Shown here: positions 138 through 4,331 of the stretch, in pieces
How the letters are laid out: each line of letters starts with the position of its first letter
Numbering within the stretch: the stretch's first letter is position 1
Source of the DNA: a bacterium
GTDB taxonomy: Bacteria > Blakebacterota > Blakebacteria > Blakebacterales > Blakebacteraceae
DNA length: 6,286 nucleotides
Direction: 5' to 3'
Assembly: GCA_025774205.1 (NCBI GenBank)
Contig: JALGWK010000102.1
Span: 1-6,286 of the forward strand
Program-made: the position numbers and the translations under genes
Notes under the pieces: generated by a model
Told to the model about the DNA's origin: nothing
Seen by the model: the letters and a program-made list of their open reading frames with translations, nothing else
Databases searched by the model: none

Positions 138-165
138 TTGACGGGAATGGAGGCGGATGTATATA
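138..165 (+). promoter_or_regulatory. candidate sigma70-like promoter for the regulator gene
   Basis: A -35-like TTGACG (138-143, 5 of 6 to consensus) and a -10-like TATATA (160-165, 4 of 6) are separated by 16 bp. Transcription would start near 172 and give a leader of roughly 180-195 nt before the regulator gene. The spacer contains GGAGG (149-153), which could instead be a ribosome site for a tiny ORF starting with the ATG at 165, but the 11-nt spacing and the unremarkable 23-residue product make the promoter reading more likely. The element is predicted by eye only. Confidence 0.4.
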
Positions 166-202: not shown

Positions 203-254
203 AGCACAAAGGGCTTCATGGAATATGAACCCGTAGCAATTCTGCCTTGCTGAA

Positions 255-268
255 TGACGGGGCCGTCA
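255..268. promoter_or_regulatory. short dyad in the leader
   Basis: TGACGG and CCGTCA are exact reverse complements around GG. As DNA this could be a protein-binding site. As RNA the 2-nt centre would force a smaller stem. It lies between two other weak hairpins: AGCAA/TTGCT with a 7-nt loop at 235-251, and GGCCCT/AGGGCC with a 9-nt loop at 297-317. None is followed by a U-tract, so I do not read them as terminators. Confidence 0.25.
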
Positions 269-351
269 CTTCTTACGTTAATGCATAAGGAGCGGCGGCC
301 CTTTGTCTGTCAGGGCCCCGGGATCAAACAGGTTCTCCCCCGGCGACCGGG

Positions 352-786
352 ATGGAGCGGGTGATCGTGAACAGCGAACTCATTATCGACCTGAAGGTGA
401 TCCGGAAGGATCTCGATCTCAATCAGTCTGAACTGGCCGCCCTGATCGGTGTATCGGAGCGGACCATCCAGAGCTGTGAACAGGGCTGGAGGAATCCGGG
501 ACAGTCGGTTGAGAAGGCGGCCCTCCTCCTGATGATGGCCAGACGTCATGGAGCCGATCTGGAGAAACACCGCTGCTGGGATTCAATCAACTGCACTGAT
601 GAGGAACGGGCGAACTGTCTCGTTCATCAGTCACATCTGGGACATGTCTGCTGGCTGTTGTCGGGGAACCTCTGCCGGAGCCGGAACCTGAGGACCTGGG
701 ACGACAAGAAGCAGGCCTGTTTCGAGTGCACCTTCTTCCAGGAACTCCTGCCGGATGGTGTGCCGCTGCTCACACCAGACGCTTGA
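352..786 (+). CDS. XRE-type HTH regulator with C-terminal two-CW cysteine-rich domain
   Basis: A 144-residue protein. Residues ~10-62 form a Cro/C1-type helix-turn-helix (NQSELAALIGVSERTIQ, then EQGWRNP). Residues ~75-130 are a cysteine-rich module with two Cys-Trp pairs (C75-W76, C100-W101) plus C81, C89, C108, C123 and C126, resembling the small 'two-CW' domain and likely binding a metal or acting as a redox switch. That role is inferred. A cytoplasmic DNA-binding regulator is the best reading. The ATG at 352 has only a weak ribosome site; GTG at 367, preceded by GGAG (354-357) at 9-nt spacing, is an attractive alternative that would remove five residues and leave the HTH intact. The frame is open upstream to 289 but has no ATG, GTG or TTG there. 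The gene overlaps the corrinoid-protein gene tail to tail by 17 bp, so it probably regulates that operon and perhaps itself. Its possible promoter lies about 190 bp upstream. Confidence 0.8.
   Translation: MERVIVNSELIIDLKVIRKDLDLNQSELAALIGVSERTIQSCEQGWRNPGQSVEKAALLLMMARRHGADLEKHRCWDSINCTDEERANCLVHQSHLGHVCWLLSGNLCRSRNLRTWDDKKQACFECTFFQELLPDGVPLLTPDA
354..357 (+). promoter_or_regulatory. ribosome binding site that may set the regulator start at GTG 367
   Basis: GGAG lies 9 nt before GTG 367, a better arrangement than anything before ATG 352. A stronger-looking AAGGAG at 287-292 is too far from either start and has no in-frame start codon at a suitable distance. Confidence 0.35.
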
Positions 787-1399
787 CGATCTCCACCGCG
801 CTTAATCCATCGAAGCCATAGGCAACTGCCCCGATCTGACTGGCAAAATCCTCCGAGACGGGAGCTCCGCCGACGATGGCGTGGATCTCATCCCGGAGAC
901 CTTCCCGCTCCAGCCGCTCAACCGTCTCCCCCATGACCGGCATCGTGGTCGTCAGCAGAGCGGACATGCCGATAATCCGGGCTTCATTCTCCCGGGCGGC
1001 CGTGACGAAAGCCTCCGGAGAGACATCATTGCCGAGATCGATCACCTCGAAACCGGCCCCTCTCAGCATGATACCGACGAGGTTCTTCCCGATATCGTGC
1101 AGATCGCCCTGGACGGTCCCGATCACCACCTTCCCGCGGGCTGGTATGCCGGAGGCGGCGAGCAGGGGCTCGATCTGGTCGAGACCCGCGTACATGGCCC
1201 GCGCCGCCAGGAGTACCTCGGGCAGGAATATCTCATGGATCCTGAACCTCTCCCCGATGACATCCATTCCGGCGATCAGTCCGTCGTCGAGGATCATCCG
1301 GGGTTCGAGGTCGTGCTCGAGCGCCTCCGCGGTGAGGCTGGCAACGGTGTCTTGATCCCCCCGTTGAAGGGCTTCCGAGATCCGGGTTACGATGTCCAT
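770..1399 (-). CDS. corrinoid (cobalamin-binding) methyl-carrier protein, MtbC/MttC type
   Basis: A 209-residue cytoplasmic corrinoid protein that holds a B12 cofactor and shuttles a methyl group between a substrate-specific methyltransferase and a folate or CoM methyltransferase. Residues ~1-85 form the helical cap domain typical of methionine-synthase-like carriers (GLIAGMDVIGERF, then FLPEVLLAARAM). Residues ~88-209 are the Rossmann-like B12 domain with the base-off/His-on signature D99-L-H101-D-I-G104, where H101 should be the lower axial cobalt ligand, followed by SALLTTTM (146-153) and VGGAPV (176-181). Length matches the family. The ATG has GGAG at 8-nt spacing (1408-1411 on the complement). 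It starts 14 nt after the stop of the MttB-like gene, so the two are almost certainly co-transcribed and the proteins should be partners. The last 17 bp overlap the convergent regulator gene. The exact methylated substrate cannot be told from this protein. Confidence 0.93.
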   Translation of the reverse strand: MDIVTRISEALQRGDQDTVASLTAEALEHDLEPRMILDDGLIAGMDVIGERFRIHEIFLPEVLLAARAMYAGLDQIEPLLAASGIPARGKVVIGTVQGDLHDIGKNLVGIMLRGAGFEVIDLGNDVSPEAFVTAARENEARIIGMSALLTTTMPVMGETVERLEREGLRDEIHAIVGGAPVSEDFASQIGAVAYGFDGLSAVEIVKRLV

Positions 1400-1413: not shown

Positions 1414-2871
1414 TTATTCCCGTTCGGGGAGTTCTTCCAGTCCGTATCTCCGGACCGCTGCTTCCATCAGGCGCACCAGCTCGGTCTGCTCTGTCTCACC
1501 GATACCACCCGGTTCCCATTCCGCCACCTTCAGTTCGACCTCCCGGTGGGCCCGTTCGCCCAGGGTCAGGCTGCCCTCTTCCTGCCACCGGGATCGGTTG
1601 GCCCGGTCGATGGTGGATGAGGGGAAATAGTGCTCATCGCGCAGATGGGCAAGGGTGTGATCGGAGATCAACAGGTGCCCGTCACGGAGCAGTTCCTCGA
1701 AAATCGGCACGGCCGGGAAGTCATCACGCGGTTCGATCCCCCGGGCGAGACGGAGGGCGAAACCGCAGATTTCGTTGTCGAGGACGAGTTTCTCGAGACT
1801 CTGACAGCTCTCGAAATCGAGCATGCCGGGACCGGAGACATTGTTGATACCTGCCAGGACCGAGAGTGTCGCGCCCATCGAGGTCTCCAGGCCGGCCTGG
1901 GCATCCAGGAGTTTGGCGTCACTCAGGGCGCTGTAGGCCTGGGTCGGCAGACCGAGGCGTTTGCCGATCTCGCTGGCGGCGCAGTCGATCAGCAAGGTTT
2001 CAGCCGCCCCCATGGGAGTCGTCTCGTACCTGACATCGAAGGCGGCTGGAGAACCGCCCCAGAGAGCCGGCGCCCCCGGGTTCTTCAACTGGGTCAGGAC
2101 CACCCCGCTCAGGGTCTCGGCGGTATGCTGCACCAGGGTGCCGACGATGGTCACCGGAGAGATGAACCCGGTCAACGGCATGGATATATATTCGACCGGG
2201 ATCGAGTACTCGGCGCAGTCGAGCAGGTTCTGGGAGGTGACTTCACTCCATTTGAGCGGCGCGGTCGGGCAGACGGAGAAGATGGTGAGCGGTTTCTCCT
2301 TCAGCGCCTCTTCCGATCCCCTGACCACTACCTGCAGATCCTTCATCAGTTCGAAAGACTCGATCGTGAAGGCACCCGTCACGACCGGTTTCGGGCAGAA
2401 GAGCAGGCTGAGGAAGAGACGGTACGAATCGGTCACCTCATCGGGCACATCGGTCGGGACGATGGCAGTGCTCTGCGAGGCGATGTTGTCCAGCGCGCAC
2501 ATGAGTCTGGCATAGCGGACATAATCACCGGTGACCGGCTTTCTCATCGAGCCGGTCTCATGGTCGAGGACGTTGATCGCGGCCGAACCGGGGGTGAAAT
2601 GGACGTTCTCACCGGAGAGATCGTGGGTTTCCCTGCCGCCGGCATCATAAAGCCGGAAGCCTGACGGAGCGGAGGCGAGGGCCAGATCGATGATCTCGTC
2701 GGTGAACCGGGCGTGGAACGATCCCGGATCGATCGTGGCTCCATGATCGGCAAGCAGTTCGAGAGCCTGCTGGTTGTGGATCTCCATCCCGAGCGTACGC
2801 AGTACGTCTCTTGCCTCGGAGATGATCCGCTCGATGAGTTCTTCATCAAGGAATCTCAGTAACGGTCTCAC
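1414..2871 (-). CDS. MttB-superfamily corrinoid methyltransferase, non-pyrrolysine
   Basis: A 485-residue protein of the trimethylamine methyltransferase family, expected to fold as a TIM barrel and to transfer a methyl group from a methylated amine to the Co(I) corrinoid of the protein encoded just downstream. Family-like segments include HFTPGSAAINVLD (91-103), TGSMRKPVTGDYVRYARLM (106-124), the PLTGFISPVTIVGTLVQHTAE region (232-252), and SDAKLLDAQAGLE (317-329) followed by AGINNVSGPG. True MttB reads through an in-frame UAG as pyrrolysine. This frame has no internal stop and ends in TAA, so the protein belongs to the non-Pyl branch, whose characterised members demethylate quaternary amines (MtgB glycine betaine, MtpB proline betaine, MtcB carnitine). 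Which of these, or another, cannot be read by eye. The start is GTG (2869-2871), supported by AGGAG at 2881-2885 with 9-nt spacing. The gene is divergent from an APC permease that may supply its substrate. Confidence 0.9.
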   Translation of the reverse strand: MRPLLRFLDEELIERIISEARDVLRTLGMEIHNQQALELLADHGATIDPGSFHARFTDEIIDLALASAPSGFRLYDAGGRETHDLSGENVHFTPGSAAINVLDHETGSMRKPVTGDYVRYARLMCALDNIASQSTAIVPTDVPDEVTDSYRLFLSLLFCPKPVVTGAFTIESFELMKDLQVVVRGSEEALKEKPLTIFSVCPTAPLKWSEVTSQNLLDCAEYSIPVEYISMPLTGFISPVTIVGTLVQHTAETLSGVVLTQLKNPGAPALWGGSPAAFDVRYETTPMGAAETLLIDCAASEIGKRLGLPTQAYSALSDAKLLDAQAGLETSMGATLSVLAGINNVSGPGMLDFESCQSLEKLVLDNEICGFALRLARGIEPRDDFPAVPIFEELLRDGHLLISDHTLAHLRDEHYFPSSTIDRANRSRWQEEGSLTLGERAHREVELKVAEWEPGGIGETEQTELVRLMEAAVRRYGLEELPERE

Positions 2872-2921
2872 TGATCTCGACTCCTGTTTCGATTCCCTTC
2901 GACTTCTGCCGCGACTGCCAG

Positions 2922-2949
2922 ATTACCCACTGCCCCGTGATCATGACAA
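2922..2949 (-). promoter_or_regulatory. candidate promoter for the methyltransferase/corrinoid operon
   Basis: Read on the minus strand, TTGTCA (2944-2949, 5 of 6 to -35 consensus) and GGTAAT (2922-2927, 4 of 6 to -10) are 16 bp apart. Transcription would start near 2915, giving a leader of about 45 nt that contains the AGGAG ribosome site. The palindrome TGATCA (2938-2943) lies in the spacer right beside the -35 box and could be part of an operator. This is a prediction by eye. Confidence 0.3.
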
Positions 2950-2976
2950 TCCCTTCTCGCAGCGATCCCCGGACGG

Positions 2977-2982
2977 TATGAT
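2977..2982 (+). promoter_or_regulatory. candidate -10 box for the APC permease gene
   Basis: TATGAT matches 5 of 6 bases of the -10 consensus. Transcription from about 2989 would give a leader of some 20 nt with GGAGG at 3002-3006. No good -35 box lies 16-18 bp upstream, so this would be a weak or activator-dependent promoter. The divergent methyltransferase promoter lies only about 30 bp away, so one regulator could control both. Confidence 0.22.
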
Positions 2983-3008
2983 GGAGGCCGTCCTGAAAAG
3001 GGGAGGCA

Positions 3009-4331
3009 ATGGAACGGAAATCACTCGGATTCTGGATGTGCACGGCCCTCGTGGTCGGCAATATGATCGGTTCCGGGGTCTTCCTGCTGCCCGCTACGCT
3101 CGCTCCTTTCGGCGGGATCAGCATCCTCGGCTGGCTGATCACCGCCGCCGGGGCGATGATGCTCGCCCTCGTCTTCGCCCGTCTGAGCCGACTGGTCCCG
3201 AAAGCCGGTGGACCCTATGCCTACACCCGGTACGGTTTCGGCGATTTCGCCGGTTTCCTGGTGGCCTGGGGATACTGGATATCGATCTGGGCCGGTAACG
3301 CGGCGATCGCGGTCGCCTTTACCGGGTACCTCGGAGTATTCCTGCCCGGCCTGAACGGAAACGCCGTGCTCTCTGCCGGAACCGCCCTGGCGGCGATCTG
3401 GTTCCTGACCTGGATCAACGCCCGGGGAGTCAGGGCCGCGGGTGTCGTCCAGGTGGTAACGACAGTATTGAAACTGGTGCCCCTGGCGGCGGTGGGGATC
3501 CTCGGTCTCTTCTATGTGAGACTTGAGAATTTCACTCCTTTCAACCTGACCGGCGGATCCGGATTCTCGGCGGTCACTGCCACCGCCGCCTACACACTCT
3601 GGGCCTTCCTGGGGCTCGAATCCGCCACCATCCCCGCCGGTGAGGTGCGTGATCCGGAGAGAACGATACCCCGTTCCACGATCACCGGATTCATATTGGC
3701 CGCGGTGGTCTACATCCTGGGGACGGTGGCGGTCATGGGTGTGATCCCGCCTGATATCCTGGCCCGATCGACCGCCCCCTTCGCCGACGCGGCCAGGCAG
3801 ATGTGGGGCGACTGGGCGGCTTACGTGGTAGCCGCCGGGGCCGTGATCTCATGTTTCGGAGCACTCAACGGGTGGATCCTCCTGCAGGGGCAGTTGCCGA
3901 TGGCGGCTGAGGCCGACAATCTCTTTCCCGGGGTGTTCGGCCGTCGCGGCAGGAGTGGCGCGCCGGTGGCGGGACTGGTGGTTTCGAGCCTGCTGATAAC
4001 GATCCTGGTTGGGATGAACTTCACCCGGAGTCTGGTGGAGATGTATTCATTCATCATCCTGCTGGCGACCTTCACAACGCTGGTTCCCTACGTCTTCTCC
4101 ACGGCCGCCGAACTGCAGATCTACATCCGGGAGAAGGAACGCTTCGACGGCAGGCGGATGCGGGGGGCCGCCGCGGTATCGATCCTGGCTCTCCTCTATT
4201 CCCTGTGGGCTTTCACCGGCATAGAGAGGGAGGCGCTTATCTGGGGCACCCTGCTTCTTCTGGGAGGTGTTCCGGTATTTTTCCTGGTCAGGAGATCACG
4301 GGAACCTGACGATGTCGATCTGCCGGAGTAG
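3009..4331 (+). CDS. APC-family permease, AdiC-like amino acid/amine antiporter
   Basis: A 440-residue inner-membrane protein with about 12 hydrophobic segments, the size and layout of the APC superfamily. It resembles the arginine/agmatine antiporter AdiC over its length, from memory of that sequence. N18 and G21-S-G23 in GNMIGSGVFLLPA match the broken first helix that binds the substrate backbone. Y88 and N96 (GYWISIWAGN), W197 and E203 (LWAFLGLESA) and W288 (LNGWILLQGQ) match AdiC Y93, N101, W202, E208 and W293. AdiC C97 and M104 are both Ile here, so the side-chain pocket differs. The ATG follows GGAGG with only 2 nt between, which is short, but the N-terminus aligns well with the family. 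Divergent transcription from a corrinoid methyltransferase operon suggests transport of a methylated amine or amino acid, or exchange of it for its demethylated product. That is inference; an ordinary amino acid transporter is the alternative. Confidence 0.88.
   Translation: MERKSLGFWMCTALVVGNMIGSGVFLLPATLAPFGGISILGWLITAAGAMMLALVFARLSRLVPKAGGPYAYTRYGFGDFAGFLVAWGYWISIWAGNAAIAVAFTGYLGVFLPGLNGNAVLSAGTALAAIWFLTWINARGVRAAGVVQVVTTVLKLVPLAAVGILGLFYVRLENFTPFNLTGGSGFSAVTATAAYTLWAFLGLESATIPAGEVRDPERTIPRSTITGFILAAVVYILGTVAVMGVIPPDILARSTAPFADAARQMWGDWAAYVVAAGAVISCFGALNGWILLQGQLPMAAEADNLFPGVFGRRGRSGAPVAGLVVSSLLITILVGMNFTRSLVEMYSFIILLATFTTLVPYVFSTAAELQIYIREKERFDGRRMRGAAAVSILALLYSLWAFTGIEREALIWGTLLLLGGVPVFFLVRRSREPDDVDLPE

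Follow-up and report, generated by a model that had tools for sequence, protein, structure and literature searches.

The window (6,286 nt, the whole of contig C342 of genome G000, an assembly of 527 contigs with completeness 86 and contamination 5) encodes a helix-turn-helix (HTH) regulator for which a 15-base palindrome in the promoter of its own gene is very probably the binding site, judging from how that site recurs with the protein family. The reading that we favor, at a probability of about 0.6, is that of an autoregulatory repressor whose cysteine-rich two-CW domain would bind a metal or an Fe-S cluster and sense redox or cofactor state, and not that of a switch dedicated to the neighboring MttB-family unit. 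This reading draws on the statistics of sequence: operator-family linkage, cysteine conservation, and gene contexts. New here is the putative operator in the regulator's own promoter, which appears to recur before homologues in Armatimonadota. G000 comes from an isolated lineage of bacteria: among the sampled genomes, one (G001) belongs to the same genus and two more to the same family; the rest share only the domain. The features of the window are as follows.

138 to 165, plus strand: promoter-like element TTGACG-N16-TATATA, recognized by eye and with the G001 alignment
172 to 192, no strand: operator candidate AAGTATCACTGAGTGATACTT, a perfect palindrome around one central base
175 to 189, no strand: operator core TATCACTNAGTGATA, in the regulator's own promoter
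218 to 253, plus strand: possible 11-codon leader open reading frame (ORF) MEYEPVAILPC, MNVPVAFLPC in G001 (weak evidence)
256 to 307, plus strand: strong RNA hairpin, past the operator and ahead of the gene, with only a short U run after it
367 to 786, plus strand: HTH and two-CW regulator gene, GTG start preferred, ATG at 352 as the alternative
391 to 504, plus strand: XRE/Cro-type HTH (HTH_3), recognition helix RTIQSCEQ
571 to 747, plus strand: two-CW domain with seven invariant cysteines and one invariant histidine, shorter than stand-alone two-CW proteins
770 to 1399, minus strand: corrinoid protein (MtgC/MtbC-like), convergent with the regulator gene
1414 to 2871, minus strand: non-pyrrolysine MttB-family methyltransferase, Leu316 (CTG) at the pyrrolysine codon of the mttB model
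3009 to 4331, plus strand: amino-acid/polyamine permease, divergent from mttB

The initial annotation had described an ORF at 352-786 on the plus strand with an XRE-type HTH and seven cysteines in a two-CW layout, and all of this was borne out by the ORF list, the profile matches, and an alignment of 15 relatives. Residues from MNS onward (GTG367) are common to the window and the G001 orthologue (77% identity) and those before it are not, so GTG367 is probably the translation start. The gene is under purifying selection relative to that orthologue (dN 0.13, dS 1.14; dN/dS ∼0.11), which indicates more than a chance ORF. HTH_3 (PF01381) matches the window protein at 24.4 bits against a Pfam gathering cutoff of 23 and is matched by 15/15 relatives. 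The Q-S-x-E-Q and W-R motifs of the HTH are invariant in all relatives, as are the recognition-helix residues Q35, S36, E38, and Q39 (15/15). An unusual cysteine, C42, had been placed next to the recognition helix; the predicted helix (residues 31 to 38, GTG numbering) contains it. The proposal that cysteines are conserved among relatives holds for C75, C81, C89, C100, C108, C123, and C126 (numbered from ATG352), invariant in 15/15 relatives from two phyla, but not for C42, which is a cysteine in 6 of the 15; C42 was accordingly rejected as a redox switch.

The NF045718 two-CW model matches residues 74 to 132 (E = 1.1e-7) at 32.1 bits, slightly below its cutoff of 35, and on this match the window protein is a divergent relative of NF045718 rather than a certified member. 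All 15 aligned family members match the same model. The second CW is invariant in 15/15 relatives, the first is CY in two, and a single histidine, H98, is invariant in the 15. When the window domain is set against stand-alone two-CW proteins, 6 of the 7 cysteines align directly; the stand-alone proteins have the same cysteine layout, but a longer loop separates their two CW motifs. Two-CW domains occur in 25 to 29 of 386 bacterial genomes sampled around G000 (about 6 to 8%), mostly as stand-alone small proteins and mostly without an HTH. We found neither the phrase "two-CW domain" nor a described function for such domains in the open-access literature. The AlphaFold model of the C-terminal domain is of low confidence (pLDDT about 50 to 68), so that no metal site can be drawn, and Foldseek with this model returned only HTH proteins, none at E ≤ 0.001. 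The domain could bind a metal or an Fe-S cluster, and its seven cysteines would allow either a cluster or two metal sites. It is likely a sensor, with redox or cofactor state as the presumed signal.

What does the regulator bind? Upstream of its gene, TATCACTGAGTGATA forms a perfect palindrome at 175-189; no other good operator was seen in the window, and at ≤1 mismatch this one is unique in the genomes of both G000 and G001. Apart from the palindrome and a leader block, the window and G001 agree at about 50% of positions upstream of the gene. Of the promoter-like element, only TATATA is kept in G001, and a promoter scan did not score the element. With its start 6 nt past TATATA, the predicted operator would lie over the site where transcription begins, as expected if the product represses its own gene.

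By profile search, 11 of 291 Armatimonadota genomes (the phylum of Zipacnadum) carry the HTH-two-CW fusion, against only 2 of the 386 sampled around G000, both from this genus. The palindrome was defined from the window and G001 only, fixed, and then scored in the 200 nt upstream of 12 Armatimonadota homologues. At least 11 of 14 matches were found upstream of 8/12 homologues compared to 1/95 control genes from the same loci; 0 of 5,000 shuffled palindromes did as well (z = 7.8), and the combined P value against dinucleotide shuffles was 5e-12. Two of the 12 homologues (L002 and L049) had no visible site, and L054 had only 9/14. Exact TATCACNNNGTGATA has 16 occurrences in 13 genomes, one site being counted twice on overlapping contig ends, versus 2 for the reversed control; it lies in the regulator's own promoter in G000, G001, G283, and G292. 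These counts suggest that, in two phyla, a conserved recognition helix goes together with a conserved DNA site.

Two observations were made alongside this search. In G062, exact TATCACNNNGTGATA lies near near-identical O-methyltransferase genes (L079, position 3598, contig C67; L081, position 9, contig C49), perhaps as part of a repeated element. In two Armatimonadota species (G060 and G061), an operator-like site is kept before a radical SAM/SPASM gene, with a URO-D-like gene on its other side (L090, 3404-3418; L121, 4398-4412). As for origin, no plasmid or phage relatives of the regulator were found and two viral-contig matches covered the HTH only, and a mobile or phage origin was rejected.

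Outside the genus, the regulator and its candidate sites were often found in or near tetrapyrrole or cytochrome c genes. In G344, the regulator lies between a hemA-cobA/hemD-ahbC-like arm and a cysG-hemB-nirJ2/ahbD-like-ahbA-ahbB-hemL arm, with sites before both. In G342, it and a cysG N-terminal gene are transcribed divergently; it is near hemA and a nitrite/sulfite-reductase-type gene in G258 and G259, and after ResB and CcsA genes and before CODH in G061; in G062, a site precedes a multiheme cytochrome gene on the same contig as the regulator. Operator-like sites also precede hemA in G062 and in G258/G259 and cysG-hemB in G061, and sites before hem genes were seen in G344, G062, G258/G259, G061, and G342. 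The combined P value for tetrapyrrole sites, over operons with and without sites, is 0.0014, a value that is inflated because some loci were chosen post hoc, after being seen near the regulator gene or near a site. Several homologues adjoin genes for large secreted proteins and not heme genes. The heme operons of G000, G001, G292, G289, and G283 carry no site; the tetrapyrrole link is therefore not seen in this genus, and the heme operons of G000 and G001 were rejected as targets. The regulon scans were pattern searches. In the open-access literature, we found nothing relevant on XRE-family regulators of hemA and no described regulator of siroheme-dependent (Ahb) heme synthesis in Armatimonadota.

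On the favored reading, a dimer of the N-terminal HTH would bind TATCAC-N3-GTGATA overlapping the start of its own promoter and would repress, rather than activate, that promoter. The seven cysteines of the two-CW domain, perhaps with the invariant histidine, would hold a metal or an Fe-S cluster, and a change in redox, iron, or cofactor state would then alter DNA binding. In Armatimonadota, the presumed protein-operator pair is often found at siroheme and heme genes (hemA, cysG-hemB, Ahb) and cytochrome c genes, and the pair may have had an older role in controlling tetrapyrrole and redox cofactors. In this genus the autoregulatory site would have been kept, and the adjoining corrinoid methyltransferase unit need not be directly controlled. 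A broader proposal, which we put forward tentatively, is that the whole HTH-two-CW family consists of cluster- or tetrapyrrole-sensing repressors that read this operator and couple tetrapyrrole chemistry (heme, cytochrome c, and here corrinoid) to redox state.

The strongest competitor, less probable though a serious one, gives the two-CW domain a purely structural role, as a zinc module for dimerization or folding, in a plain or partner-controlled autorepressor that senses neither redox nor metal. Among the HTH matches are antitoxin and controller families, many of them doing no more than autoregulate, and two-CW domains mostly stand alone in small proteins. However, seven invariant cysteines are more than one zinc site would need, the heme and cytochrome contexts suggest a cofactor signal, and no toxin-like partner gene is kept beside the homologues. 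An antitoxin reading was rejected on the same absence of a partner, the HTH being antitoxin-like and the PADLOC matches HTH-only.

Is the regulator a switch for the methyltransferase unit beside it? The initial annotation had reasoned that a metal- or redox-responsive regulator would make sense as a switch for this module. That the protein is a DNA-binding regulator whose cysteine domain is conserved is supported; its proposed role at MttB is not. The logic is sound, since corrinoid demethylation requires Co(I), and synteny with the corrinoid protein, MttB, and permease genes is kept in G001, where the neighbors also include a DUF5700 protein (a putative zinc peptidase in Pfam) and FabH. The 3' ends of the regulator and corrinoid genes overlap by 17 nt (770-786), likewise in G001. 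The regulator was said to be attached to the corrinoid operon; it is indeed tail to tail (convergent) with the corrinoid gene, and so lies beside the operon and not in it. No operator above chance was found in the mttB/permease promoter region (2872-3008) in either genome of the genus (best 7/12), and there is thus no support for direct control of that operon, though the regulator might act on it indirectly or by way of the 17-nt convergent overlap. The expected association of homologues with corrinoid methyltransferase genes is absent everywhere except in this genus: a corrinoid or MttB gene lies near the homologue at 0 of 14 Armatimonadota loci, within fetched flanks of mostly 7 to 8 kb (much shorter on one side for L053 and L059), and adjacency was seen at 2 of 16 loci, both from the same genus. 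MttB-family genes are present elsewhere in 10 of 11 Armatimonadota genomes with the regulator, not beside it. In Eubacterium limosum, moreover, the gene divergent from mtyB encodes a RocR-like FIS homologue, a different type of regulator (PMC8604678). A switch dedicated to this operon and acting at the 2872-3008 promoter was rejected for lack both of recurrent adjacency and of an operator there and is improbable, and the position beside the methyl-transfer operon is probably a local arrangement.

Two features of the MttB genes themselves deserve mention. The window MttB is of the non-pyrrolysine type (CTG, Leu316), yet its gene still resembles a pyrrolysine element: Rfam PYLIS_3 matches 1827-1926 on the minus strand at 40.8 bits against a cutoff of 38. 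A riboswitch was rejected, as this element within mttB was the only Rfam match above cutoff. G258 and G259 (L156, L158, and L169) each have about ten MttB-family matches, which amounts to a large expansion; some of these carry a single in-frame stop (TAG or TGA).

Between operator and gene lies block 231-275, over which G000 and G001 share 89% identity (49% over 1-150). The hairpin folds with a z of -5.6 in the window and -7.6 in G001, without a T-rich tail. The hairpin is possibly an attenuator or terminator, the possible leader peptide and hairpin together (218-307) might act as an attenuator or small RNA, and they may add a second regulatory layer; hairpin and tiny ORF were seen only in this genus. 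That the palindrome and hairpins are a 5' leader or small RNA acting by attenuation, operator-like by accident, is quite unlikely: 170-310 folds well (z = -4.75; -6.5 in G001), outer palindrome changes in G001 would still pair as G-U, and the leader block is conserved, but the palindrome recurs without the leader before homologues in another phylum, and before other genes, which fits a DNA site read by the shared recognition helix.

If the family-wide proposal is true, the two-CW domain would gain a first function, in a cluster- or tetrapyrrole-sensing repressor family. With its candidate operator defined, the regulator offers a simple assay of whether metal, oxygen, or tetrapyrrole acts through this domain on DNA binding, and the putative operator points to a candidate regulator of siroheme-dependent (Ahb) heme synthesis in some Armatimonadota.

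Among known systems, E. limosum has RocR/FIS-type regulators beside the MttB-superfamily genes mtyB and mtcB; like the window regulator, they adjoin a non-pyrrolysine MttB gene with a transporter (PMC8604678). They belong to an unrelated class and are divergent from the methyltransferase, whereas the window regulator is convergent with the corrinoid gene. NF045718 proteins share the window protein's layout of CW...C, a single C, CW...C, and C-x2-C; the window domain, which is joined to an HTH, has about 17 fewer residues, whereas most stand-alone members lack an HTH. XRE/Cro-C1 regulators (CylR2, SinR, the 434 repressor, and the HTH of the MqsA and HigA antitoxins) have the same HTH fold and an operator palindrome at their own promoter, as is proposed for the window protein. 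In MqsA, the zinc domain is N-terminal to the HTH. The window protein differs from these regulators in its C-terminal two-CW domain, its lack of a toxin partner, and its different candidate operator.
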